Positions 2,869-26,396 of a stretch of 30,154 nucleotides of DNA are shown here, in pieces. Source of the DNA: a virus; IMG/VR virus record IMGVR_UViG_3300021962_000442, positions 1 to 30,154 of that record, one strand, 5' to 3'. The translations under genes and the position numbers were made by a program. Positions within the stretch are counted from its first letter, which is position 1. Each line of letters starts with the position of its first letter. Under the pieces are notes generated by a model that did not search any database, was not told the DNA's origin, and saw nothing but the letters and a program-made list of their open reading frames with translations.

Positions 2869-5418
2869 ATGAATACTACCTTACTTGTAACAATCACGGG
2901 TGGAACATATCAGAGGTTAGATATTTATGAAGATATACCCATATCATTAGTAATACAACAATCTGACCTTACTGATTTAACGGCACGCCGTGTACCCTAC
3001 TCAAAAACTATATCTATACCCGATACCCAAAATAACGCCAGAATATTTGAGCATTATTATGAGGTAAATGGTTTAGATTTTAACCCCCTAAACAAACTAC
3101 CATGTGTAGTCCAATATAGGGGTACGGATATTTTTACAGGGGTGTTAAGGTTAAACGCAGTTATTGAGACACTAACAAGTCGCACTTATGAGGTTTATAT
3201 TTTGGGTGATGCGGCTGATTTCGCAAGCGATATTAAAAACCTTACTTTACAAGATATCCAATGGAGTGATTTATTACACGAACAAAGTTATAGTGCGGTA
3301 ACAACAAGTTGGGAGGCGAAGGATAATGACACCGATGGTTTATTTGGGGGTAAAATAATATACCCACTTATACACTACGGATTGGAATACCAAAGTGCCA
3401 GTGCGACTACCGCAGCCTTTTCATTTTCTTTTGGTCAGAGCGACTCTTTTAGTACAAGCGGTAATCCTATGCCGGTTCAGTATTTTAAACCCGCCATCAG
3501 AGTAAAAGAGGTGTTAGATAGAATATTTGATTTGACACCATATAACATTGAGAGTGAATTTTTTGATACCAAGTATTTTAAGTCCATTTACATGGATACC
3601 TTCCAAAATGGTTTAACAGGTTTAGATACCATCAGTGCCGTAACTAACCAAAATATTTTTAGAGCATTTGGGGAAACACCATTGATTTTAAGGTATGAGA
3701 AAGATGAATATTTAGAGATACCCCTACAAGATAACCTCGCCGGTGCGTATGACCCATTGGATAACTACTCCAACTTACTTAATGGATTTTTTACGGCACC
3801 CTATCAAGGGGATTATGGTTTTAACTTACGCTTTAACTACCGAGCCGTACCATTAGTGTTATTTAGATTTTTTAGTATTGAGGTTTATAAAACTACAACA
3901 AATGATTGGTTAAATGATGGAACATTGGTTTACTCCTCACCAAGTGAATCTTTGTTTTTCAATGTACTCACACCACCTCGTTCTGTAAACTTATTTTTCA
4001 ACCTAACCTTACAACCTGGTGAAAGGGTAAAAGCATTTGTAAAATGTGGTTCAGCAGCGGGTACTGGTAACCCTGAGTTTTTTTTATTACCTTATGATTT
4101 TGGTGGTGTAACTGATGAGTATATTTTATGGGATTTGTATTATGGTCCGGATTTATCCGCATCCCAAACAGTTGATATTAGATTAGGTTTACCTAACTAC
4201 AACCTATTTGAGTTCATCAAATCCATGATAACAATGTTTAACCTTGTTATCTCACAGGATGAAAATGAAAAAATATTACGGATTGAGCCTTATAACTGGT
4301 TTTATAATGATAGTGATAGACCCGTACAGGATTGGACTAATAGGATTGACCGCTCACAAGAATACCGCATTGAGCCGTTGAGTTTTGATTTACCCAAAGA
4401 GAATGTATGGACTTGTATGGATACGGGGGATGAATACCTCAACAAACTTTATAGGGATAAGTTTGATTTTGTTTATGGAAGGTATAAGTATACAACCACC
4501 AATAATATTTTTAGTGGTATACAAGAATATGTTATCCCATTTGGTGCTGTACCTACCTCTGGTTTAACAAATGCGACAAACTTTGTTATCCCCAAGTTTT
4601 ATTATGAGAATAACAACCAGGAGATACCTTATGCGAAAAACCCACACTTGTTTTTTTGGACAGGTAATAGATATGCTTACACCGATGAGTATAAAACAGT
4701 ACCAGGTTATTGGTGGTTGTTATCAGGTAATACACCGGTACAACAAACTACCTATCCATGTGTAAGTCATATTACAAACTTGGATTTACAGGTTGATAAC
4801 CTTATATCCGATTTAAACTTTATCTCCACATTTGATTTTTATGGTAACTCAAATAACCAGATTGAGCAGTTTACGCAGTATGATTTGTATAATACTTTTT
4901 GGTCCACTTTTGTGGATAACATTTATACACCACAAACAAGGCGTATAAAATGTAGGGTATTTATGACACCGATTGATGTTTATGATACCACACTGCGTGA
5001 TAAGATTTGGATAAAGGATGCGTATTATACTATTGAAAAAATAAATGAAGCGGATTTGGTAAACAAAAAACTTACAGAGGTACAACTTATCAAAGATGTA
5101 AACCCGTATTATAAAGTTATCCCACCCGCACCAGTATACCCACTTTCAGGTAATACACCTTACCCGCCAGTAGAGCCAACATTTATAACCGAATGTTATG
5201 TCTCAACAGATAAAACGGCTGTTTGTAATGGAACAGCATCAATAGAAACTATAACCACTTTTGGTACCGGTATTTTACAAAACTTCCGTAAAGTGTACCG
5301 AGATACGGGGACGGCATTAGTTTTACTAAACATGGGTGAATACCTGCGTCAAACAACAACATCAGATATGTTTGTTGTCGCAGATACTTATGGTAGAATA
5401 TTAGAACAAGATTGTTAA
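2869..5418 (+). CDS. Large tail tip / baseplate protein
   Basis: The protein has 849 residues. The N-terminal region has LDIYEDIPISLVIQQSDLTD, then RRVPYSKTISIPDTQNNARIFEHYY (split across residues 38-62), a combination I know from large tail proteins of Bacteroidota phages. The centre has VKEVLDRIF and long Tyr/Phe-rich beta segments. The last ~50 residues, after a Pro-rich stretch, contain a short Cys-containing module ending in LEQDC. There are no transmembrane segments. Its position directly before the tape measure gene supports a tail tip or hub role. Which of hub, distal tail or carbohydrate-binding function applies cannot be told from sequence alone. Confidence 0.6.
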   Translation: MNTTLLVTITGGTYQRLDIYEDIPISLVIQQSDLTDLTARRVPYSKTISIPDTQNNARIFEHYYEVNGLDFNPLNKLPCVVQYRGTDIFTGVLRLNAVIETLTSRTYEVYILGDAADFASDIKNLTLQDIQWSDLLHEQSYSAVTTSWEAKDNDTDGLFGGKIIYPLIHYGLEYQSASATTAAFSFSFGQSDSFSTSGNPMPVQYFKPAIRVKEVLDRIFDLTPYNIESEFFDTKYFKSIYMDTFQNGLTGLDTISAVTNQNIFRAFGETPLILRYEKDEYLEIPLQDNLAGAYDPLDNYSNLLNGFFTAPYQGDYGFNLRFNYRAVPLVLFRFFSIEVYKTTTNDWLNDGTLVYSSPSESLFFNVLTPPRSVNLFFNLTLQPGERVKAFVKCGSAAGTGNPEFFLLPYDFGGVTDEYILWDLYYGPDLSASQTVDIRLGLPNYNLFEFIKSMITMFNLVISQDENEKILRIEPYNWFYNDSDRPVQDWTNRIDRSQEYRIEPLSFDLPKENVWTCMDTGDEYLNKLYRDKFDFVYGRYKYTTTNNIFSGIQEYVIPFGAVPTSGLTNATNFVIPKFYYENNNQEIPYAKNPHLFFWTGNRYAYTDEYKTVPGYWWLLSGNTPVQQTTYPCVSHITNLDLQVDNLISDLNFISTFDFYGNSNNQIEQFTQYDLYNTFWSTFVDNIYTPQTRRIKCRVFMTPIDVYDTTLRDKIWIKDAYYTIEKINEADLVNKKLTEVQLIKDVNPYYKVIPPAPVYPLSGNTPYPPVEPTFITECYVSTDKTAVCNGTASIETITTFGTGILQNFRKVYRDTGTALVLLNMGEYLRQTTTSDMFVVADTYGRILEQDC

Positions 5419-5419
5419 G

Positions 5420-8224
5420 ATGGCTGCGAATAATATAGGTTTACGGATTACACTAAACGGGGTTGATACAGTAGTAAGGAGTATTACAGAACTTGAAAAT
5501 GCTATCAAGTCTGCGAAAGAACAACTTACAGGTGAACAACTTGGTAGTGCGCAATTTAAAAAACTAACAGGTGAAATATCCAAAGCAGAGGGTAAACTAA
5601 AAGATTTACAAAAAAGAGCCGAGGGTATTAGTTTAGAAAAACGGATAGGTGATTTTACCAAGTTCGGAGCAGCGATAACCGCATCCTTCGCAGGGGCAGT
5701 CGCAGCAGTAAACCTATTTGGTGCTGATACCGAAAAAGTGTCAAAAGCAGCAGCCGCAGCACAAAATGTTTTAACGATAGCACTGGCAGCCCGTAGTGCC
5801 GCAGAGGGCTTCGCAGCCGCAGGTACTGTGGTACTTACAGTAGAAACTTACGCACTAGCCGCAGCAGAATATGTTGCGACAACAGCGACGGGGGTACTAG
5901 CGACCGCACTTGAAACTTTATTCGCAGTCATCGCAGCGAACCCTATTGGTGCGATTTTGGTCGCTATTGGTTTACTCATCGCCGGTGTAGTATACCTTAC
6001 AAGTTCAACCGATGATGCCAGGGAAGCAGAGGAGGCATACCAAAGAACATTACAGCGTGGTAAATCAATCCGTGAAGACCAATTAAAGTTATTACAAGCA
6101 CAGGGTGCTGCTGAAGATGTTATCGCACAAAAGCGTTTACAAAACGCCCAAGCAGATGCGCTGGACGCTCAAAGGGAATTAAGCAGGGCTATCGCACAGA
6201 AAAAATCTATAAAGGAGATTGAGGATTTACGAACCAAAGCATCCCAAGCAAGCCGTAATGTGGAAATAGAAAGAGCATCATTACAAACCACAATAAGAAA
6301 CAAAGAAAAACGAGAGTTAGAAGCGGCTAGACAAGCGGAAAAGGAAAGATTAGCAGAAAGAGAAAAACTTATCAAAGATAATGCTCGTGTCGCATTGGAG
6401 GCGATTGCGACGGAGAAAAAAGCATTTGAGGATTTGTTAAAAACATTAGAAAAAGAAATACCTGAACCCCTCGTAGTTACACAACTAAAATCAGTAATAG
6501 AGGTTAGTAAACAACTCGGACAAGTTGGTATACAAAAATCTTTTCAAGGTATACTAGATGATTTTTACGCTCTACCACCCGCAGTGGAAAAATCAACAGG
6601 GGAGTTGGATAAGTTCGGTAAAATGATGATTGAAGGTTTACCCAATATAAGGTTTGTTACCAGTAATATACTTGGTAGAACTGTAAAGGATTTTGGTGAC
6701 TTCCGTGATAAGTTGAGTAGGGCACTGCGTGCTGATGAAATATCCAGAGAGGCGTATGAGGCAGGTATTGAGATTGCGAATGCTTACCAAAAAATATTTG
6801 AGGTAATAAATGACCCAAAACAACCTGAACTTAAAGATATTGATATTACGGGATTGCGTAAAGCGACAGAAAACCTTGAAGCCGCAGGTGGTGAGTTTAT
6901 TTATACCTTTCAAGAAATAGAGGGTGAGTTAGTCGCTATCCAACTTAAAACCGATGATGACCTTACCGTCGCTCAAAATAAGTATAATACACGGGTACTA
7001 GCCGAAACCATGAAAGTCAAAAGGTATCTTTTGAAAAATAGTGAGGAGATACAGGCAATCCGTGAACAAGATGCGATTGACGGCACTAACCTGGCTGAGG
7101 AAACTGCTCAAGCACAGGCTGAGGCAGCAATTAAGGGTCTTGTAGAAAAACAAAAACAAATCATTTTAAAGGAGGACGAGATTAGTGCGTTTTATATTGA
7201 AATAGGTAAACTCCGTTTAGAGCGTGAACAACTACAAAATAAAGCACTGTTAGGTATAGTAAGTCAAAATGTTGACTTGATTATCGCAGAGGGACAAAAA
7301 CTTTATGATATTGACAGCGCCGCATTTGAGGAATATATCCAAGATAAAATAAGTGGGTTGATAGATTATACTAAACTAGATGCGGAAGGTTTACAACAAC
7401 TTGAAGCATTATATGCCGAGTTTTACAAAAAGGTAAAAGAACAAAGGGATAAAAACTCTGCGGATGAAAAAGCGGATTTTGATAAGAGGGTACAAAAGGT
7501 AGAACAAAATATTAGGGATATACAAGCCGCTATTACCTCTGTAAGTCAAACCCTCGCTGACTTTTATGCCCTCCAACTAGATAACCTAGATAAACAACAG
7601 GAAGCCTTACAGGCGAAAATTCTTGGTGATACAAAGGAAGCGAATGAGAAGCGTATAGAGTTGGATAAGATATACCAAAAGGAAAGGTCGGATTTAGAAA
7701 AGAAAGCACTCAAAACTTCATTGAGGCTTACCTTGTTACAGGCTATCGCTGACGCAGCGGCTGCGGTTGTAACCATCTTTAAACAAACCGGTATATTGGG
7801 TGGTGCGGCAGCGACGGCTATCGCTATAAGTAGTGCGGCGCAGATTGCGATTATTACGGCACAACTCAATAGTATTGACAAATACCGCCGTGGTGGTAAA
7901 CTTATGAAATACGCAGGCGGTGGTATGGTAGTTGGACCTTCTCATGAAATGGGTGGGGTAAAATATCAAGGTGGTGGTATAGAGTTAGAAGGTAATGAGG
8001 CGGTGATAAATAGGGTCAGTAGTATAAGGTACGCTGGACTTTTGAGTGAAATAAACCAATCGGGCGGTGGAAAACCATTAGTGGTAAATAACTTTGATGA
8101 TAGTAGGATTGTAGAAGCGATAGCGAAACAAAAGCGTGAACCAATACGAGCGTATGTATTGGAGCAAGAGATTACAAACAAACAGGCTGTATCACGCCGT
8201 TTAGAACAACTCTCACAAATATAA
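5420..8224 (+). CDS. Tape measure protein
   Basis: The protein has 934 residues. The start is a short amphipathic region, followed by Ala-rich hydrophobic segments (about 82-99 and 112-195) including NPIGAILVAIGLLIAG. A long charged coiled coil covers much of the middle. A second hydrophobic stretch lies near 770-812, and the Gly-rich C-terminus has RRGGKLMKYAGGGMVVGPSH. This layout is typical of siphovirus tape measures. It sets tail length and is threaded through the tube during assembly. By the usual proportion the length would suggest a tail of roughly 140 nm (estimate). The ATG lies one base after the upstream stop. Confidence 0.9.
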   Translation: MAANNIGLRITLNGVDTVVRSITELENAIKSAKEQLTGEQLGSAQFKKLTGEISKAEGKLKDLQKRAEGISLEKRIGDFTKFGAAITASFAGAVAAVNLFGADTEKVSKAAAAAQNVLTIALAARSAAEGFAAAGTVVLTVETYALAAAEYVATTATGVLATALETLFAVIAANPIGAILVAIGLLIAGVVYLTSSTDDAREAEEAYQRTLQRGKSIREDQLKLLQAQGAAEDVIAQKRLQNAQADALDAQRELSRAIAQKKSIKEIEDLRTKASQASRNVEIERASLQTTIRNKEKRELEAARQAEKERLAEREKLIKDNARVALEAIATEKKAFEDLLKTLEKEIPEPLVVTQLKSVIEVSKQLGQVGIQKSFQGILDDFYALPPAVEKSTGELDKFGKMMIEGLPNIRFVTSNILGRTVKDFGDFRDKLSRALRADEISREAYEAGIEIANAYQKIFEVINDPKQPELKDIDITGLRKATENLEAAGGEFIYTFQEIEGELVAIQLKTDDDLTVAQNKYNTRVLAETMKVKRYLLKNSEEIQAIREQDAIDGTNLAEETAQAQAEAAIKGLVEKQKQIILKEDEISAFYIEIGKLRLEREQLQNKALLGIVSQNVDLIIAEGQKLYDIDSAAFEEYIQDKISGLIDYTKLDAEGLQQLEALYAEFYKKVKEQRDKNSADEKADFDKRVQKVEQNIRDIQAAITSVSQTLADFYALQLDNLDKQQEALQAKILGDTKEANEKRIELDKIYQKERSDLEKKALKTSLRLTLLQAIADAAAAVVTIFKQTGILGGAAATAIAISSAAQIAIITAQLNSIDKYRRGGKLMKYAGGGMVVGPSHEMGGVKYQGGGIELEGNEAVINRVSSIRYAGLLSEINQSGGGKPLVVNNFDDSRIVEAIAKQKREPIRAYVLEQEITNKQAVSRRLEQLSQI

Positions 8225-8243: not shown

Positions 8244-10505
8244 ATGTTAAAAGTTATTGAGTTAGATATTGACGGGGAACTTACAGGGGACACTGGTGTA
8301 TGGGAGATTGCGTGGGTAAATCAACCGGCGATAGAACAAGATTTTATCTTTTTTAACAAACAAGAACAAGAGTTTGAGACTTATAATGATTACCCTGAGG
8401 GTGCTAAAAATAATGCTTGCCGTGCCCTTAAATGGAGGGACGAGCACCCCGATGATGATTGTGGAACGCCCGTAGGATGGGCAAGAGCCAACCAACTCTG
8501 TAAAGGAGAAAATATAAGTAGGGAGACCATCGCTAGAATGGCTAGTTTTGAGAGACACAGACAAAATAGTGATGTACCTTATAGTGAAGGATGCGGCGGG
8601 CAGATGTGGGATGCCTGGGGAGGTGATTCTGGAATCTCATGGGCACAAAACAAACTCAAAGAAATAGATGGATTTGCGATTGACCCTAACCCATGTTGGG
8701 ATGGTTACGAACCGGTGGGTATGAAGCCTGGCGATGGTGGTGGTATGGTGCCTAACTGCGTCAAAATGGAAAAGTTTGTAAAACCAAACGCAGGTGAATC
8801 ACAAGATGATTTTATTGGTAGGTGTATACCTTACTTACTCAATGAGGGTAAGACACAAGATGAAGCCGCAGGAGCGTGTTACGGCATGTGGGAGGGTAGT
8901 AAAGAAACTTTCGCCGGTGATAAAGTCAGTTTTGATTGGGATGGTACATTAGATACCAAAAAAGGTATAGATGCTTTGGAGCGTGAGCGTGTAAGAGGTA
9001 GTGAGGTTTATATTATTACGGCAAGACCAAACATCGGTGATGATATTTGGGCACTAGCCAGAAAATATGATATACCCTCAACCCGTATTTATGCGACAGG
9101 GTCAAACCCAAACAAAATAGACAAAATCAAAGAGGTGGGTATTGTAAGACATTATGATGATAACCCACGAGTACAAAATGAGTTACCCAACATCGCAGTT
9201 AATTTTGATTATGATATAAGTGGTTTACCTAGTTATGTAAACTACCCCGAGAGTGGTGATACTGATAGTATGTTAGTAAAACCATTACCAACTCAAATGA
9301 GTGATTGTGGTTGTAATAAAAATGAAAAACACAAGTTTGAACTTGTAGGTTTTATTGACGGCACCCCCACATTTAGTAACCCTGATGAGGCTAGATTATA
9401 TGGAAATCAAATAATGGGTTGTGATGGTTACCATGAGCATGATATGGATGGGGAGTTAGTTTATATGCCGTGCGCATTACACCCTATTGAGGAGGATTTT
9501 AGTTTATCAGATTATGATGAGGAGGAAATTCAGGTACTAAAACTTTTGAGTTTACTAAAAGTACAGGACTACCAAAAGTTTGAGGCAATCACCAACCAAC
9601 TTATGCGTGGTTTTACAGCCGCAGAAATTAAGGATATGAACCATAAAAACCCTGTAAAATATTTTTTATACAAAAGGGTAATGAGTGGTAGTCCTGATAG
9701 AGATTTTTGTACTAGTATTGAGGGGCGTTATTTCCGCAGGTTACAAATAGACGCATTACGAGATACCAATACTGATTTTGGGCATAACAAACAACCATAC
9801 TCGAAATGGCTCTACAAAGGTGGTCCGAATTGCGTCCACGCTTGGGAGGGATACATCGCACAGGGTAAAAACCTTGTAAGTACAGGGATGGCAGAGGGTA
9901 ATGCCGGTATCGCACCAAAAGCGATGCCTAACAACGGATATTTTGATGAGAAGACAAAAAGAAAAAGTGAGATAGCATATATTATATCACAACAAAATAT
10001 GTCTGAACAAAAAATGGAAAGTGTTTTTAAAGCCGATGAGCAGAAGCGCATGGTTTACTCACCACTTATGATACCTAATATACTTATACCAAGAATAGAT
10101 GAGGTAAGTGGGGAAAGATTTTATGTAAAGTTTACACCTGAGACTATTGAAAAAATCCAACGCAAGTTTATGATTGAGCAAAGGTTGAGGGATACAAACT
10201 ACGAACATACGGATAAAAAATTCAGCGATGCTGTTCTCGTTGAATCATGGTTAGTTGAGGGTGAAAAAGACAAAGCATACCAGTTAGGTTTTACACCACA
10301 ACAAACACCCGTAGGTACATGGATGGGTGGGTTTAAAATTTTGGATACCGAAGAGGGGGATGTAGTATGGAATGAACTTATTAAAACTGGTAAAGTAAAA
10401 GGTATGTCAGTTGAGGGTAACTTTATTACAAACTTCTCACAAGTAAACCAAGATGAGTATTTATTAGAACAGATAAAAGATATTTTAAAAAAAATAGATA
10501 AATGA
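8244..10505 (+). CDS. Multidomain head protein: XkdF-like maturation protease with embedded HAD-like domain
   Basis: At 753 residues this is far longer than ordinary prohead proteases. Modules in order: a leader (1-45); a Cys/Trp-rich block with PVGWARANQLCKGENISRET (about 76-95); a 'CWDGYEPVGM... CIPYLLNEGKTQDEAAGACY' block (150-213); a HAD-like segment (about 224-322) with FDWDGT at 230-235, TAR at 259-261 and HYDDN at 303-307; a Cys/His block with GCDGYHEHDMDGELVYMPC (392-410); a MuF-like segment with YKGGPNCVHAWEG (524-536); and a C-terminal XkdF/S78_2-like protease domain (604-735). In the last, His655 (NYEHTDK) and Ser722 (KGMSVEG) are plausible catalytic residues. The gene overlaps the scaffold start by 4 bases, matching a head-maturation role. 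The HAD function is unknown. Confidence 0.75.
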   Translation: MLKVIELDIDGELTGDTGVWEIAWVNQPAIEQDFIFFNKQEQEFETYNDYPEGAKNNACRALKWRDEHPDDDCGTPVGWARANQLCKGENISRETIARMASFERHRQNSDVPYSEGCGGQMWDAWGGDSGISWAQNKLKEIDGFAIDPNPCWDGYEPVGMKPGDGGGMVPNCVKMEKFVKPNAGESQDDFIGRCIPYLLNEGKTQDEAAGACYGMWEGSKETFAGDKVSFDWDGTLDTKKGIDALERERVRGSEVYIITARPNIGDDIWALARKYDIPSTRIYATGSNPNKIDKIKEVGIVRHYDDNPRVQNELPNIAVNFDYDISGLPSYVNYPESGDTDSMLVKPLPTQMSDCGCNKNEKHKFELVGFIDGTPTFSNPDEARLYGNQIMGCDGYHEHDMDGELVYMPCALHPIEEDFSLSDYDEEEIQVLKLLSLLKVQDYQKFEAITNQLMRGFTAAEIKDMNHKNPVKYFLYKRVMSGSPDRDFCTSIEGRYFRRLQIDALRDTNTDFGHNKQPYSKWLYKGGPNCVHAWEGYIAQGKNLVSTGMAEGNAGIAPKAMPNNGYFDEKTKRKSEIAYIISQQNMSEQKMESVFKADEQKRMVYSPLMIPNILIPRIDEVSGERFYVKFTPETIEKIQRKFMIEQRLRDTNYEHTDKKFSDAVLVESWLVEGEKDKAYQLGFTPQQTPVGTWMGGFKILDTEEGDVVWNELIKTGKVKGMSVEGNFITNFSQVNQDEYLLEQIKDILKKIDK

Positions 10506-11269
10506 ACGCACAAGAAGCGATTACAAAGATTACAGAACTTTTAGGTTTAAAGTTCCGTAAAGAAAGTTTTTACTCTACCAAACTAGTAGATGGTTCAACA
10601 GAGGTAACAAACAACAAAGACACAGATTTCGCAATCGGTGATATCCTATATGTGGTGGGTGAGACAACACTCACACCCGCACCGTTAGGTGAGCACACGA
10701 CCCGTGAAGGTGTTGTTGTTTATGTGGATTCCGAATCTTATATTTACAAGATTGAGGAAGCCGCAGTTACAGAAGATGTTGACGATGCTATTGAGCAGGT
10801 TGAGGATGAAGCAGTAGATATGTTGTCATCTGCGACACTGGCTGATGGTACTAAAATAGAAACTGATGAGGAGGGCGATTTCGCTGTTGGTCAAAAGTTA
10901 TATGTTATTACTGAGGCTGGAGACAGAGAACAAGCACCTGAGGGGGAGCACACTACCGAAAGTGGGATTACCCTAACCGTAGATTCCGAAGGTATCATCA
11001 CGGGGGTAAAATACCCTGATGAGGCTGGAGAGGGTGAGTTAGAGGATATGAAAAAAGATATGGAGACAATGCGTCAAGCGATGTCACAACTTTTGGAAAT
11101 GTTCAAAGATTATAATGGTAAACAAAAAACAGAACTTGCGGCTCTAAAATCAGAGTTTGAAAAGTTTAAAAATCAACCAGACAGAGAACCTGTCCTAAAA
11201 AAATTCAACACCAACCCATCAGATATTATGGATTGGAAACTTGAGCTATTAAGAAGTTCAAGAAAATAA
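10502..11269 (+). CDS. Probable capsid scaffolding protein
   Basis: The protein has 255 residues and is acidic. Two related beta modules each carry a 'DGT/S... AIGD or AVGQ... GEHTT' pattern (about residues 29-85 and 113-167), showing an internal duplication. A coiled coil follows (about 175-220), and the tail is basic (WKLELLRSSRK). Position between the maturation protease and the major capsid gene, plus coiled coil and basic C-terminus, fit a scaffold that is removed during head assembly. The ATG overlaps the protease stop (ATGA type), suggesting translational coupling. The family call rests on context and architecture more than on a diagnostic motif. Confidence 0.6.
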   Translation: MNAQEAITKITELLGLKFRKESFYSTKLVDGSTEVTNNKDTDFAIGDILYVVGETTLTPAPLGEHTTREGVVVYVDSESYIYKIEEAAVTEDVDDAIEQVEDEAVDMLSSATLADGTKIETDEEGDFAVGQKLYVITEAGDREQAPEGEHTTESGITLTVDSEGIITGVKYPDEAGEGELEDMKKDMETMRQAMSQLLEMFKDYNGKQKTELAALKSEFEKFKNQPDREPVLKKFNTNPSDIMDWKLELLRSSRK

Positions 11270-11294: not shown

Positions 11295-12242
11295 ATGGAA
11301 AAGAATAAAAAATTCTCGTTCAACTATGATTTGAGTAACCTACCCACCTATAACTCTTATGGGGACGATATGCTTATCAAGTCATTTCTCGGATTGACCC
11401 TCCCAAAGTACTCGAGCGTACGTCCGAATCTTAAGGGGACAACCGAAAAAGTGGGTTTTGTTACAAATGATATCATTTTACAAGACTTATCTTGTGGTTT
11501 TGACCCCACAGGTACAACCGTCCAAAATCTCGTCACGATTGACCTATGTAATAAAAAAATTAACCAGGAGCTATGTCCCTACGACTTGTATGACACTTAC
11601 CTTTCAAAGTATTTGAGTGATTCAAACTTTCAGGAAACTGTACCGTTTGAAGAGGTAATCCTAACTGACATCTCAAACAGAGTTGCGAATGAAATCGAAA
11701 TCCAACTTTGGAGAAACACAACGGCATCTGGTGCGACACCTTACAACTCACAATGTTTTGATGGTGTATTATCTTTGGTAACATCAGGTAATGGTGCGAC
11801 TTCAATCGCATATTCTGCTGCGACAGCGACGAATGGTCTCGAAGTTTTTAGCACTTATTATGAGGCTATCCCCGAAAATGTTTTACACAGAGATGATTTG
11901 GTAATATATTGTTCTTATGCTGACTATCGTGGTTTAGTCGCTTCAATGCGTAATAGTTCTTATGTAAACCTATTCTCATTTGATGACGCATCTGCGGCTT
12001 CAGGTAGTGAGTGGAGCGTAATGTTACCTGGAACTAATGTTCGGGTAATCCCATCACAGGGTCTCAATTCGCAGAATAGAGTTATCGCTGGTGCTGCGTC
12101 TTACATCATGATTGGTACTAATGCTGAGATGATGACGACAAAGGCTATGTACGACCCGTTCTCTGATATCGTGAAAATTAACCTCCATGCGACTTATGGT
12201 GTTGGAGTATTTGATGTTGCGAGTTTTGTTTCTGCGGCATAA
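11295..12242 (+). CDS. Major capsid protein (HK97-fold expected)
   Basis: The protein has 315 residues and no signal peptide or membrane segment. It follows the protease and scaffold and is followed by the tail tube. Its body alternates helices and strands, with stretches such as LCPYDLYDTYLSKYLSD, NRVANEIEIQLWRNT and the C-terminal AMYDPFSDIVKINLHATYGVGVFD, consistent with capsid proteins of Bacteroidota phages. Codon choice differs from neighbouring genes, with more C-ending codons (ATC, CTC, GTC) and few ATA, as expected for a very highly expressed product. The upstream 25 bases are A/T-rich with no Shine-Dalgarno sequence. Confidence 0.82.
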   Translation: MEKNKKFSFNYDLSNLPTYNSYGDDMLIKSFLGLTLPKYSSVRPNLKGTTEKVGFVTNDIILQDLSCGFDPTGTTVQNLVTIDLCNKKINQELCPYDLYDTYLSKYLSDSNFQETVPFEEVILTDISNRVANEIEIQLWRNTTASGATPYNSQCFDGVLSLVTSGNGATSIAYSAATATNGLEVFSTYYEAIPENVLHRDDLVIYCSYADYRGLVASMRNSSYVNLFSFDDASAASGSEWSVMLPGTNVRVIPSQGLNSQNRVIAGAASYIMIGTNAEMMTTKAMYDPFSDIVKINLHATYGVGVFDVASFVSAA

Positions 12243-15433: not shown

Positions 15434-15870
15434 TATACATTAGACAAGGATTACAAAATACAGTACCCGCAGTTTGTTCTAGAAACTTGATAGATGAAAA
15501 TGCGGATATTTACTTATGGGATATGGAGCATAAACTTACAAGTCAAACTTTTAGGTTTATCCCTTACATGTATGATTGGACTACGGATTATTTACCAGGT
15601 TATAATCAGTTTGATATAAGTGTAGATGATACACAACCCCAATCTCTTACAGGTAATACAGTTACTGGCACCACAAATGTTTACCTTATACCCGGTGAGT
15701 ATTATGTTACAATATACGGACAAACCTCAAATTCCAACTTAAATCCCACTTTAAGTGAGGAGATTGTATATCAAACACAAGGATTAGTGGTAGGTGCGAA
15801 TAAAAACACACCGGTTTCTTATAGTGGTGAGACCGACATATTTATATTATACAACCCTGATAATGATTAA
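15430..15870 (+). CDS. Virion-associated protein of Bacteroidota-phage type
   Basis: The protein has 146 residues and is almost all beta. It contains YLWDMEHKLTSQTFRFIPYM (about 29-48), NVYLIPGEYYVTIYGQTSN (about 83-101) and LNPTLSEEIVYQTQGLVVG. I recall this arrangement in small structural proteins of Bacteroidota phages encoded near portal or tail genes; its exact role is unknown. It overlaps the preceding gene by 4 bases and the portal start by 8. No membrane segment or enzyme motif is present. Confidence 0.5.
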   Translation: MIYIRQGLQNTVPAVCSRNLIDENADIYLWDMEHKLTSQTFRFIPYMYDWTTDYLPGYNQFDISVDDTQPQSLTGNTVTGTTNVYLIPGEYYVTIYGQTSNSNLNPTLSEEIVYQTQGLVVGANKNTPVSYSGETDIFILYNPDND

Positions 15871-16936
15871 AGTAGATACATTTAATTTTAGTGATTCGGC
15901 GAACCTAATGCGTTTTGTAGAAAAAATAAACCGTAATGAGTTTTTTGTGCGTTGGGGTTTAGATAACATGGAGATTGAGAGATGGTATGATTATGCTGAT
16001 TTTTCTCCAATCCACGCAGCCTGTATCCGTTCCAAAGTAGATAACTGCTCAGGTAGGGGTTTTACCAAAGATTATAAAATTAATGGTAAGGAAAGTATAA
16101 ATGATGTTATCAAACAAATCTTTTGGGAGTTTATTGTTGGTGGTAATGTATTTTTGGAGATAGTATGGAAAAATGACCGTAATGAAGGTATCGCTGGTTT
16201 CCACATTATACCATCAAAATATATGCGGGCTAAAAAACCTGAAAATAATGAACTCCGCACTGATAGTTGGTTATATTGTCATGATTGGGCGAATTTCCGT
16301 AAAGCGGGTGTTATTGAGTTTAAAGAGTTTGACCCTAAAAACTACACTGATAGACAAATAGTACACATCAAAGCATACCAACCTGGTTATTTATATTATG
16401 GTGTACCTGATTACCTATCAAGTATGTTAGATATTAGATTATCACATGCCATCTCTGCCTTCAACCTTTCGAATATCAGTAACGGGGCTAGCCCGTCAAT
16501 GTGGGTACATTTTCCAAGTGAAGCTCCTGATTCGCAGAATGAGCAAGAGGATATACTCCGTAGGTTAGAGGAAAGGTATCGGGGTAGTGAAAATGCTGGA
16601 AGGATTATTGTAAGTTATGGTGGTGAGGGTAGTAAGCCTGAAATCACACAAATCACTCCCACGATGGCGACGGGGGGTTATGCCGAAATCTTCGCATTGG
16701 TAAGAGAAAATATTCTTGCGGGACACAAAATCGTGGACGGCTCAATCATCGGTTTACCAAACCCAACAGGGTTTAACTCAAGTGCCGAGCAGTTGATGAC
16801 TACCTACAAGTTGTTTATGTCTACTAGTATTTTACCTACACAAGAATTCATAATCCGTGAACTTCAACCCATCTTAAGGTTAATGTACCCATTAGAGCAA
16901 GTTGACTTACAAATAGAACAAAATACTATATTATGA
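15863..16936 (+). CDS. Portal protein (short, PBSX-like)
   Basis: The protein has 357 residues. Portal-like signatures include an early helix-rich region with HAACIRSKVDNCSGRGF (about 52-68), a 'GGNVFLEIVWKND' strand pair, the 'YYGVPDYLSSMLDIRLSHAI' helix (about 181-200) and a C-terminal NPTGFNSSAEQLMTTYK segment. It forms the dodecameric ring through which DNA is packaged and to which the neck attaches. I start it at 15863 (MIKVDTFNF); a longer in-frame start at 15794 would overlap the upstream gene by 77 bases. It lies far from the terminase genes, which is unusual, and overlaps the connector gene by 4 bases. Confidence 0.82.
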   Translation: MIKVDTFNFSDSANLMRFVEKINRNEFFVRWGLDNMEIERWYDYADFSPIHAACIRSKVDNCSGRGFTKDYKINGKESINDVIKQIFWEFIVGGNVFLEIVWKNDRNEGIAGFHIIPSKYMRAKKPENNELRTDSWLYCHDWANFRKAGVIEFKEFDPKNYTDRQIVHIKAYQPGYLYYGVPDYLSSMLDIRLSHAISAFNLSNISNGASPSMWVHFPSEAPDSQNEQEDILRRLEERYRGSENAGRIIVSYGGEGSKPEITQITPTMATGGYAEIFALVRENILAGHKIVDGSIIGLPNPTGFNSSAEQLMTTYKLFMSTSILPTQEFIIRELQPILRLMYPLEQVDLQIEQNTIL

Positions 16937-23126: not shown

Positions 23127-23621
23127 ATGAAGCGTACTGTACAAAAAAACACCCTATCCTTTACCACTTCCAAGTCCATGATGTATTTGAGAACCCCTGT
23201 TGATATTTGGGCTGACCTTACAAAAGAATTTAACTTTACATTGGATGCGTGTGCTAGTGATGAAAACCATTTATTACCGAAGTGGTACACCAAAGAAAAT
23301 AGTTGTTTAGATAAAGATTGGAGTGGGGAGGTTGTGTATTGTCACCCAATGTTTGACATTTACATCGGTAAGTTTGTGGAGAAATGTTATACCGAAATGG
23401 TAAACAATAATGTTACCTCCGTTATGTTAATACCCGCATCAACCCATACAAGGTACTTCCACAAGTACATTTACAACAAACCAAATGTTGAGGTTAGATT
23501 TTTAGAAAAACCTGTTAAAGGGTTTAGATTTTTACACGATGGTGGTGTGGAAGATGACCTTACCAAAATAGGGTACATCAAACCATTAATGGTTGTTATT
23601 TTTAACAACACACAAAAATAA
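23127..23621 (+). CDS. Phage Dam-like DNA N6-adenine methyltransferase, altered motif IV
   Basis: The protein has 164 residues. TPVDIWADLTKEFNFTLDACAS (about 23-44, written in parts) is the SAM-binding opening of the phage Dam family. LIPASTHTRYFHKYI (101-115) and the 'VEVRFLEKPVKGFRF' strand (121-135) complete the family pattern. Where the catalytic N/D-P-P-Y/F is expected, the sequence is CHPMFD (72-77). The protein is therefore either a divergent subclade or has lost methyl transfer. Its neighbours are ParB-like and Mom-like genes, forming a DNA-modification cluster. The length is near the family norm, so it is not truncated. Confidence 0.7.
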   Translation: MKRTVQKNTLSFTTSKSMMYLRTPVDIWADLTKEFNFTLDACASDENHLLPKWYTKENSCLDKDWSGEVVYCHPMFDIYIGKFVEKCYTEMVNNNVTSVMLIPASTHTRYFHKYIYNKPNVEVRFLEKPVKGFRFLHDGGVEDDLTKIGYIKPLMVVIFNNTQK

Positions 23622-23630
23622 TAATAGTTT

Positions 23631-24230
23631 ATGAAAGCAGAATTATTTGATATTGAGGACATAAAACTAAACCCCAATAACCCACGCACCATCACAAAGG
23701 TACAAAAAGAAAAACTTATGAAATCCATAAAGGAGTTTCCACAAATGTTAAACATTAGACCATTGGTAGTTGATGAAGATAACATGGTATTGGGGGGTAA
23801 CATGAGATATCAAACATTAGTGGAGTTGGGTTATAAACAAGTACCTGTAATAAAGGCTATGGATTTGACACCCGAACAAAAACAAGAGTTTATCATCAAG
23901 GATAACATCGCATTTGGTGAGTGGGATTGGGATGTACTACAAACAGAGTGGGAGATGGAGACACTATGGGATTGGGGTTTAGATAGTGGTGGTTTTGAGG
24001 TGGATAAAAACTTATTTGATACAAACTTTAAACTAGCAGAGGGGGATAAATCACCCTTCCAACAAATAACCTTTACCCTATCTGATGAGCAGCATACCAT
24101 TGTAAAAAATGCTATGAGTGATATAAAACAAACAGAGGAATTTAAGTATTGTGAGACCTTTGGTAATGAAAACTCAAATGGTAACGCACTTTATTTACTT
24201 ATACAACAATGGGCAGAGCAAAAGAAATAA
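23631..24230 (+). CDS. ParB/sulfiredoxin-fold DNA-binding or nuclease-like protein
   Basis: The protein has 199 residues. The N-terminal ParB-type domain shows LNPNNPRTI (13-21), then LVVDEDNMVLGGNMRYQTLV (45-64), with the GGNMRY turn at 55-60 in place of the classic GERR-type motif, and EFIIKDNIAFGEWDWDVLQ (86-104). Phage ParB-like proteins of this type often sit beside or are fused to methyltransferases and may bind DNA or nick it. The C-terminal half is unrelated to methyltransferases. Its last 22 bases overlap the Mom-like gene, pointing to coupled translation. Confidence 0.72.
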   Translation: MKAELFDIEDIKLNPNNPRTITKVQKEKLMKSIKEFPQMLNIRPLVVDEDNMVLGGNMRYQTLVELGYKQVPVIKAMDLTPEQKQEFIIKDNIAFGEWDWDVLQTEWEMETLWDWGLDSGGFEVDKNLFDTNFKLAEGDKSPFQQITFTLSDEQHTIVKNAMSDIKQTEEFKYCETFGNENSNGNALYLLIQQWAEQKK

Positions 24231-24904
24231 TAGTAAAAGTTATACCTGCGACACTGGCGAATAGTTTTGTAAGGAGACACCATTATAGTGGTAAGGTAGT
24301 CCCAAATAGTACCCTACACTTTGGGTGTTTTTTGGATGATAAACTACATGGTGTAATGTCTTATGGTCCGAGTATAAATAAAAAGGGCACCATAAACCTT
24401 GTAGAAAATACAGGATGGAATGAGTTTATTGAGTTAAACAGGATGGCATTTGATGACTACCTTCCAAAGTATAGTGAAAGTAGGTGTATTAGTATTAGTA
24501 TAAAACTTATAAAAAAGAATGCCCCCCAAATAAAATGGATTATCTCCTTCGCTGATGGGACACAATGTGGGGATGGCACCATTTATAGGGCTAGTGGTTT
24601 TAAACTTGTAGGTATAGTAGATAACACCGCACTGCGGTTAAACCCAAAGACAGGAGAGGCTATACATGTTATACAAGCACACCACCTAAAAATAACCAAT
24701 GAATTTAAAAAGTGGAAACCCATCTCTGGTAAACAACTCAAATATGTTTACCTGATAGATAAAACCTGTAAGTTAAATGTCCCCGTTATACCATTTAGTA
24801 AAATAGATGAATATGATGCCGGCATGTATAAGGGGGAAAAAATAACCCTCAAACAACGGAGAGGGGATTTGAGCGATGGAGTCGGGTTGAACGCTATCTC
24901 CTGA
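24209..24904 (+). CDS. Mom-family adenine modification protein (GNAT-like)
   Basis: The protein has 231 residues. VRRHHYSGKVVPNSTLHFGC (21-40), the 'LHGVMSYGPS' strand (46-55), 'FIELNRMAFDDYLPKYSESR' (about 73-92) and SFADGTQCGDGTIYRASGF (113-131) together match Mom-like proteins, which in phage Mu convert adenine to a methylcarbamoyl-adenine and protect DNA from host restriction. The substrate here is inferred from family. It starts inside the ParB-like gene. Its final 33 bases are shared, on the other strand, with a tRNA-Gly-like element. Confidence 0.7.
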   Translation: MGRAKEIIVKVIPATLANSFVRRHHYSGKVVPNSTLHFGCFLDDKLHGVMSYGPSINKKGTINLVENTGWNEFIELNRMAFDDYLPKYSESRCISISIKLIKKNAPQIKWIISFADGTQCGDGTIYRASGFKLVGIVDNTALRLNPKTGEAIHVIQAHHLKITNEFKKWKPISGKQLKYVYLIDKTCKLNVPVIPFSKIDEYDAGMYKGEKITLKQRRGDLSDGVGLNAIS

Positions 24905-24984: not shown

Positions 24985-25245
24985 ATGACAGAGTTACAAT
25001 TAAATTTTTTGGATACATTGGAAAAGAGTTTAGGTATAACCTCCGTCGCACTCAAAACCCTTGAAATAGAAAGGGAAACTTACGAGGGGTGGTTAAACAA
25101 CCTTGAATTTAAAAAACGGATTACCCAAATAAATGAGGGGAGTATAGATTTTGTTGAGAATAAGTTATTACAGAAAATAAACCAAAATGATTTAAACGCC
25201 ATCCAGTTTTACCTAAAAACAAAGGGTAAAAAAAGAGGTTACTAA
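24985..25245 (+). CDS. Terminase small subunit (adjacent to the large subunit)
   Basis: The protein has 86 residues. An N-terminal helical HTH-like region (FLDTLEKSLGITSVALKTLE, 10-29) is followed by YEGWLNNLEFKKRITQ and the C-terminal DFVENKLLQKINQNDLNAIQ / FYLKTKGKKRGY. This sequence style is familiar from small terminase subunits of Bacteroidota phages. It overlaps the large subunit ATG by one base, the usual arrangement for the DNA-recognition and motor pair. The short length is normal for this type. Confidence 0.68.
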   Translation: MTELQLNFLDTLEKSLGITSVALKTLEIERETYEGWLNNLEFKKRITQINEGSIDFVENKLLQKINQNDLNAIQFYLKTKGKKRGY

Positions 25246-26396
25246 TGAAAGTAAAAACTACCATAGTATTTGATGAACTACTCAAAAGCGATGAGGCGGG
25301 TAAACGCATTGTTGTCGCACAGGGTGGAAGCCGTAGTGGTAAAACTTTCAACATTTTGATATATTGGATTTACAAACTATTACAGGAGAATAACAAGGTA
25401 CTATCCATTGTCCGTAAAACCTCCCCCGCTATGAGGGCATCCGTATTACGGGATTTAAAAGAGGTATTGGAAATATTTGGTTTGTATAAAGATGAGGATT
25501 GGCACAAGGGGGAAAGATACTATCAACTCGGTACAAACATCATCAACTGGTTTAGTGTGGATGAACCACAAAAACTGCGTGGTAGTAAAAGGGATTATCT
25601 GTATTGTAATGAGGCGAATGAATTAAGTATTGAGGATTGGAATCAGTTAATTTTTAGAACAAGTGATAAGGTTATATTAGACCTTAACCCATCGGAGTTA
25701 TCTTGTTGGGTTTATGATTTAGCAGAAAGGGAGGATTGTTATTATTTTAAATCAACATGGAGGGATAATCCGTTTGTGGATGAAAACATTATCAAAGAGT
25801 TGGAAAGCCTAAAAGATAAAGACCCAAACCTTTACCGTATTTATAACCTCGGCGAAAAAGGTATAGCGACAACCCTTGTCTTTAACCAATTTAATGAGAT
25901 ACAACTTATACCACCCGATGCGAAACTTTTGGGGTATGGTGCTGACTTTGGTTATAATGACCCTGCGACATTAATTGCGGTATACCATAATGGTGATTCT
26001 TTATTTTATAAAGAACTTATATTTGGTAGGAGTATGACTACTACTGATTTTATAGAAAAAATGAATCAACTAAATATAGAAAGGACGGATACTATTTGGT
26101 GTGATAGTTCTCAACCCCAAACCATTGAGGAGATGCGTAGAGCAAAGTTTAATGCGAAGCCTGTAAATAAAAAATCCATATTACATGGTATTGACCTTAT
26201 GAAGCGACACTATAACTTTATTACCACCTCAAGCCCCAATATCTTATATGAGTTTAATAGTTATAAGTGGAAAACAGATAGGGATGGTAAACTGCTTGAT
26301 GTACCAGAGGACAAAGACAATCATACCATTGACTCAATAAGATATGTATTAGAAAGCACCATTGGAAATAAACCCCGAAAGTTTGTAGTAATATGA
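25245..26396 (+). CDS. terL: Terminase large subunit
   Basis: The protein has 383 residues and is the packaging motor. Walker A is GGSRSGKT (27-34); the Walker B-like segment is DYLYCNEA (117-124, with Glu123 as the probable catalytic base); LDLNPS (145-150) fits the coupling motif. The nuclease domain has ADFGYNDPA (233-241, Asp234), WCDSSQP (285-291, Asp287) and HTIDSIRY (360-367, Asp363). All key acidic residues are present, so both ATPase and nuclease functions look intact. The length is slightly short for the family but shows no missing domain. The gene overlaps its neighbours at both ends by 1-4 bases. Confidence 0.93.
   Translation: MKVKTTIVFDELLKSDEAGKRIVVAQGGSRSGKTFNILIYWIYKLLQENNKVLSIVRKTSPAMRASVLRDLKEVLEIFGLYKDEDWHKGERYYQLGTNIINWFSVDEPQKLRGSKRDYLYCNEANELSIEDWNQLIFRTSDKVILDLNPSELSCWVYDLAEREDCYYFKSTWRDNPFVDENIIKELESLKDKDPNLYRIYNLGEKGIATTLVFNQFNEIQLIPPDAKLLGYGADFGYNDPATLIAVYHNGDSLFYKELIFGRSMTTTDFIEKMNQLNIERTDTIWCDSSQPQTIEEMRRAKFNAKPVNKKSILHGIDLMKRHYNFITTSSPNILYEFNSYKWKTDRDGKLLDVPEDKDNHTIDSIRYVLESTIGNKPRKFVVI

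Follow-up and report, generated by a model that had tools for sequence, protein, structure and literature searches.

A multi-module head-maturation protease precursor with an exchangeable HAD-type block in an uncultured phage

The window, the whole 30,154-nucleotide stretch of viral DNA analysed here, encodes a head-maturation protease precursor in which residues ~225-322 very probably form a divergent HAD-type domain. This HAD block is an exchangeable, dispensable cassette: among related viruses it may be retained, inactivated, deleted or swapped. Catalytically dead versions, overlooked by the initial annotation, are both common and conserved.

Protein layout and head-gene context

The single Pfam domain in the 753-aa ORF is the XkdF protease (PF14550 at residues 592-726, E 1.9e-11; 44.5 bits, cut-off 24); it makes up the C-terminal end of a protein with several domains, as the initial annotation had proposed. 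H655 and S722, kept in 30/30 relatives by column counts, are probably catalytic by analogy with the protease family. The accessory modules lie between the XkdF-type N-terminal segment and the protease core (Table 1). In L026 the protease directly follows that N-terminal segment, and in relatives of ~345 aa such as L070 GESK and HAD come in between. The Cys/Trp and Cys/His blocks noted earlier are real conserved modules. The MuF-like character earlier given to residues 455-559 was not supported, and MuF identity was rejected, with Pfam MuF unmatched by this segment and by four from relatives.

Among all parts of the protein, the WARANQL module has the broadest isolate-virus matches, including head-protein annotations. 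Isolate viruses of both bacteria and haloarchaea have it, in proteins labelled as portal, major capsid protein or prohead protease. The GESK module typically stands immediately N-terminal of the HAD domain and is also present in most solo HAD genes; a search for it in isolate phages gave no match. The Cys/His module matches PF12518 with an E of 0.021 here and of 5.6e-8 for the segment of the relative L023. The full-length AlphaFold2 model is poor (pLDDT 69.9, pTM 0.31), too poor for domain packing, and cleavage in the linker is therefore a guess.

Table 1. Features of the protease precursor and of the neighbouring head and packaging genes, with window coordinates
Feature	Residues	Position	Strand	Basis
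Multi-module head-maturation protease precursor, 753 aa		8244..10505	+	complete open frame
N-terminal segment of XkdF-type proteins, ...VxxPAIExxFxxF	1-37	8244..8354	+	seen in relatives
Helical Cys/Trp module 'WARANQL'	47-142	8382..8669	+	phrog_2859, E 1.4e-12
Short module CWxGYExxGMK...VPNCV	149-174	8688..8765	+	block HMMs; presence varies across tree
GESK...C...C helical module	176-217	8769..8894	+	block HMMs
Predicted capless HAD-type phosphohydrolase domain; D231, D233, T259, K291, D305, D306	225-322	8916..9209	+	model, motifs, profiles
Flexible linker	323-358	9210..9317	+	pLDDT < 50 at residues 323-362, full-length model
Cys/His module GCxGxHxH...YMPCxxH	359-412	9318..9479	+	weakly DUF3721-like
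Conserved module FC...GGPNCVHAW	455-559	9606..9920	+	weak phrog_33693 portal C-terminus, E 0.025
XkdF/Peptidase_S78_2 protease core	592-737	10017..10454	+	PF14550; H655, S722 invariant
Downstream ORF, probable scaffold		10502..11269	+	ATGA overlap with protease ORF at 10502-10505; second half of phrog_24921
Portal protein		15794..16936	+	phrog_33693, E 5.5e-27
Terminase large subunit (TerL)		25245..26396	+	phrog_2, E 1.9e-37

The gene order places the protease in a head operon. The probable scaffold ORF starts inside the protease stop codon (ATGA), the first half of the phrog_24921 model is matched by the protease and the second half by this downstream ORF, and the portal and TerL genes lie on the same 30-kb viral contig. 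ORF 11295-12242 is, as a guess, the candidate capsid gene. Two long ORFs directly upstream of the protease, at 2869-5418 (849 aa) and 5420-8224 (934 aa), have weak PHROG matches only. Just upstream of TerL, the ORF at 24209-24904 encodes a Mom-like DNA modification protein (phrog_1384, E 6.9e-46), and a short ORF at 23127-23621 is DNA methyltransferase-like; in L064, a Mom-like gene separates the solo HAD gene from the terminase genes.

Identity of the HAD-type block

The motifs FDWDGT (230-235), TAR (259-261) and HYDDN (303-307) are present in the correct order, as reported earlier, and K291, absent from the earlier list, completes the HAD set. D231 and D233 fit the HAD motif I pattern DxD[GDE]T. 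Motif IV reads DDN here and DNN in most relatives, the canonical HAD form being an acidic pair. A profile of the HAD block matched at least 328 IMG/VR stretches, 80 of which were kept as HAD loci; these were found by motif-based patterns, biasing their motif conservation upwards, and a sample collected by the protease alone is therefore the fair estimate. Across 77 distinct relatives, the first Asp of motif I is kept in 75 (Glu in the other two) and the second in 72, the Thr/Ser of motif II in 73, the Asp of motif IV in 75, and the Lys corresponding to K291 in all 77. Most homologues thus keep the Asp residues on which the initial annotation had staked its proposal, although not all do. A chance match of the HAD motifs was rejected, conservation in the 77 relatives being far above chance.

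AlphaFold2, run on 73 sequences, gives the HAD block a pLDDT of 93.2 and a pTM of 0.87, with strands and helices alternating and the cap domain absent. Motif I follows strand 1, motif II sits at the end of strand 2, the Lys lies in the helix that leads into main strand 4 and motif IV comes after that strand, these being the strand ends expected for HAD enzymes. In a Foldseek search against the PDB, the HAD P-domain of CopA ranks at the top (TM 0.67, E 0.004); nothing falls under an E of 0.001, and HAD proteins are mixed with USP-like, NAD-binding and other Rossmann-type folds. The search with the full-length model returned mainly Rossmann-type folds, again with CopA at the head, making it the top PDB match in both structure searches. 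In BFVD, the block matches viral proteins that carry XkdF or HAD annotations, as well as phage PNKs and a HAD hydrolase from a Marseillevirus. The lack of a HAD fold in a confident model, named earlier as an outcome that would count against the proposal, was not fully what was found, the fold being confident and the PDB matches mixed.

Profile comparisons connect the block to known phosphatases. A sequence profile searched against the PDB matches the class B acid phosphatase AphA (E 0.0025). Profile-profile comparison with the PNKP phosphatase region, built from T4 PseT and related proteins (nine phage sequences in all), scores 30.4 (P 1.1e-4) over 94 columns with all four motifs in register. 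As controls, the kinase part of those nine proteins reaches 16.4, and none of 30 column-shuffled profiles exceeds 17.7. Together with the model and the catalytic residues, the AphA and PNKP matches support the HAD-like segment of the initial annotation. By sequence, the domain appears akin to the polynucleotide 3'-phosphatases of phages and to class B acid phosphatases, and would act as a phosphatase. The 753-aa ORF has no kinase domain.

Pfam HAD models have no match for this member and match 3-4 of the 73 members, weakly; a single-sequence Pfam search of the HAD segment returned no HAD match and only spurious weak ones, while Pfam ADH_zinc_N matches 38 of the 73 members weakly. A curated Pfam HAD match is a practical marker and not a defining feature of the fold.

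Intact, dead and absent states among relatives

A whole-protein scan collected 25 viral loci, whose alignment reveals a conserved protease core, with entire blocks gained or lost in the stretch that joins it to the N-terminal segment. Applying HMMs of each block to all ORFs, truncated ones included, revealed dozens of module combinations and orders. The length of 753 residues, earlier regarded as unusual, is normal in a lineage where about 680-1010 aa is usual, and it exceeds the shortest common form, N-terminal segment, GESK, HAD and protease, which spans about 335-350 aa. The HAD module has no match in isolate phages by tblastn with one relative's module, and a search of 84,980 bacterial and archaeal genomes, which relies on short patterns, yielded 88 pattern stretches and 0 relatives.

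Avoiding bias, 45 distinct full-length proteins were collected via the protease alone, and of these 27 are motif-intact, 10 degenerate and 8 without HAD. Sorted by block type, the same sample holds 29 HAD-type blocks (the 27 intact ones and two partly decayed), 8 of degenerate type and 8 with none. The two partly decayed members, L143 and L166, have lost part of their catalytic motifs and are possible intermediates from intact to dead.

Close pairs display the exchange directly. L004 and L006, one intact and one dead, share mostly 85-100% nucleotide identity in the flanks and ~40-55% in the HAD block, with amino-acid identity mostly 95-100% outside the block and about 10-50% inside. L127 and L128 are about 90% identical, and the ~100-aa HAD block is cleanly absent from L128. 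On a backbone tree of the N-terminal segment and protease from 45 proteins, a partly different set in which motifs were scored more strictly (28 intact, 11 degenerate, 6 none), the HAD state changes at least 12 times; the remaining accessory modules show 9-11 changes, and the 455-559 module just 4.

Dead copies are still held by purifying selection: degenerate HAD modules retain their own set of conserved residues, and by a simple pairwise method their median dN/dS is 0.22 (11 pairs) versus 0.28 for intact ones (1394 pairs). Because dead versions are common and conserved, catalysis cannot be the sole job of the slot. A second HAD-family copy was found on none of the 10 degenerate or 8 HAD-less contigs, which may be partial. 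The three states and the lack of a second copy indicate a function that is useful, not essential, and a slot that is valuable even without catalysis.

The block also occurs outside XkdF proteases. In L052 and L073 it is fused, together with a TUDOR-like domain, to a second head protease family (PF04586, E about 1e-46 to 1e-48), and it forms a short gene or is accompanied only by the WARANQL module in L064, L065, L075, L079, L082, L084 and L099. Separate HAD genes lie upstream of terminase in 7/7 loci, TerL being confirmed in all seven. The PF04586 fusion and the solo genes upstream of terminase indicate that the block is an accessory to head assembly or packaging that phages can do without. 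Hva1_TUDOR domains are fused into head-maturation proteases of two families (L052, L073 and L063).

Possible roles and relation to known systems

Assemblin-type head proteases are active inside the prohead, where they cleave head proteins, and capless HADs tend towards large or exposed substrates. The reading we favour, at about an even chance as a whole, is that an assemblin-type head protease precursor doubles as a carrier, with the HAD domain as capsid cargo that is released, retained, ejected and active as a phosphatase. The precursor would be produced from the head operon immediately ahead of the scaffold and incorporated into the prohead, where the protease would cleave the scaffold, the capsid protein and its own linkers. 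The HAD domain and other modules would thereby be freed inside the head, some staying with the DNA and entering the next host with it. There, the domain could remove phosphate from an accessible substrate, with nucleic-acid ends suggested first, because of the substrate tendency of capless HADs and the PNKP match, and nucleotides or a phosphoprotein next. The earlier idea of a passenger released when the protease cuts is plausible and the most economical reading of an exchangeable, dispensable cassette recurring in head and packaging contexts.

An alternative places the work of the HAD domain in head assembly or packaging, for instance by removing 3'-phosphates from the ends of packaged DNA or by dephosphorylating a head protein, and has it discarded before the mature virion. 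We regard this as fairly improbable, although separate HAD genes adjoin the terminase genes in all seven loci, the PNKP 3'-phosphatase domain is the closest catalytic relative tested and the domain is carried on a protease active in the prohead; with 8/45 relatives lacking HAD, about 10/45 carrying a dead one and no second family copy on those contigs, an essential packaging step is unlikely. The persistence of degenerate modules, with the lower median dN/dS and conserved residues described above, is what would be expected if the domain were mainly a structural or binding module, whether a spacer, a scaffold partner or a ligand-binding head component, in which catalysis is incidental and often lost. 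The inactive PBECR domain in phage Mu gpF provides a precedent for such a catalytically inactive enzyme (PMC5512222). A pure spacer would nevertheless have no need of the full motif set found in most copies across deep divergence and three contexts, and the block is cleanly deletable (L127/L128), leaving a mainly structural role doubtful.

It is very unlikely that the block is another Rossmann-type nucleotide-binding domain, for example USP-like, with convergent HAD-like motifs. USP and NAD-binding folds do appear among the top PDB Foldseek matches and ADH_zinc_N weakly matches about half of the members; against this, the four HAD motifs occur in the correct order and structural position, the PNKP profile match is well over its controls and the CopA P-domain comes first in both PDB searches.

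A broader extension of the carrier reading is unlikely as it stands. It treats the slot as a cargo bay in which active, dead or absent HAD versions are swapped, freed in the head and injected. The active form would then act against a host defence that depends on phosphate, or mend blocked ends of nucleic acids, and an arms race would drive the turnover. If the carrier reading is true, head-maturation proteases would act as a chassis for delivering enzymes in a large uncultured phage group, loading them into the capsid by covalent fusion and freeing them by the head-maturing cut, and further cargo domains would be worth seeking in the same slot. The relatives supply a natural allelic series, in which the HAD block is active, dead or missing while the background is nearly identical.

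Among the closest described arrangements is that of the polyvalent proteins, whose assemblin-like peptidase is always at the C-terminus, with a proposed role in protein processing during virion assembly (Iyer et al. 2017, PMC5512222). The present protein shares the layout of several unrelated domains in mosaic order, a packaging gene context and a C-terminal assemblin-like protease. It differs in that a HAD or phosphatase domain is not named in the main text of PMC5512222, and in that the protease here is apparently the phage's own head-maturation protease. The proposed self-cleavage has a parallel in phage SPN3US, whose protease cleaves many head proteins and itself (PMC10052503). In T4 PseT polynucleotide kinase, the 3'-phosphatase domain has its HAD motifs in register with ours; T4 PseT, however, is a repair enzyme in its own right, with larger inserts and an additional kinase domain, whereas the HAD domain here comprises ~98 aa.

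UniProt entries from uncultured Caudovirales named 'XkdF' or 'HAD-like domain containing protein' (e.g. A0A6J7WUA4) have a very similar HAD fold, with TM up to 0.92, under names that are automatic annotation only. Since several of these HAD-fold entries are annotated XkdF, the HAD-XkdF pairing is already in databases; a paper describing it was not found in the open literature searched.

The closest cultured matches of the XkdF protease are in Nonlabens phages P12024S and P12024L. P12024S_01 (349 aa) and the Rhizobium phage RHph_TM16 protein (210 aa) belong to the same PF14550 family and lie in a head or portal context, but, unlike the 753-aa protein, are without inserted modules. P12024S_01 has the full length of the phrog_24921 model, and the protease and scaffold-like parts of this model are two overlapping ORFs here. 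The Rhizobium protein, labelled 'DNA methyltransferase/prohead protease', was rejected as another enzyme fusion, PF14550 (9-120) being all that is recognised in its 210 aa. In the cultured haloarchaeal virus HGTV-1, the 889-aa prohead protease gp11 shares the WARANQL module, and others by eye, but its protease lies at the N-terminus and belongs to a different type (PF09979, below cut-off only) and HAD motifs were not seen. This HGTV-1 protein corresponds to L200:1636-4302, where similar modules stand behind the N-terminal protease.
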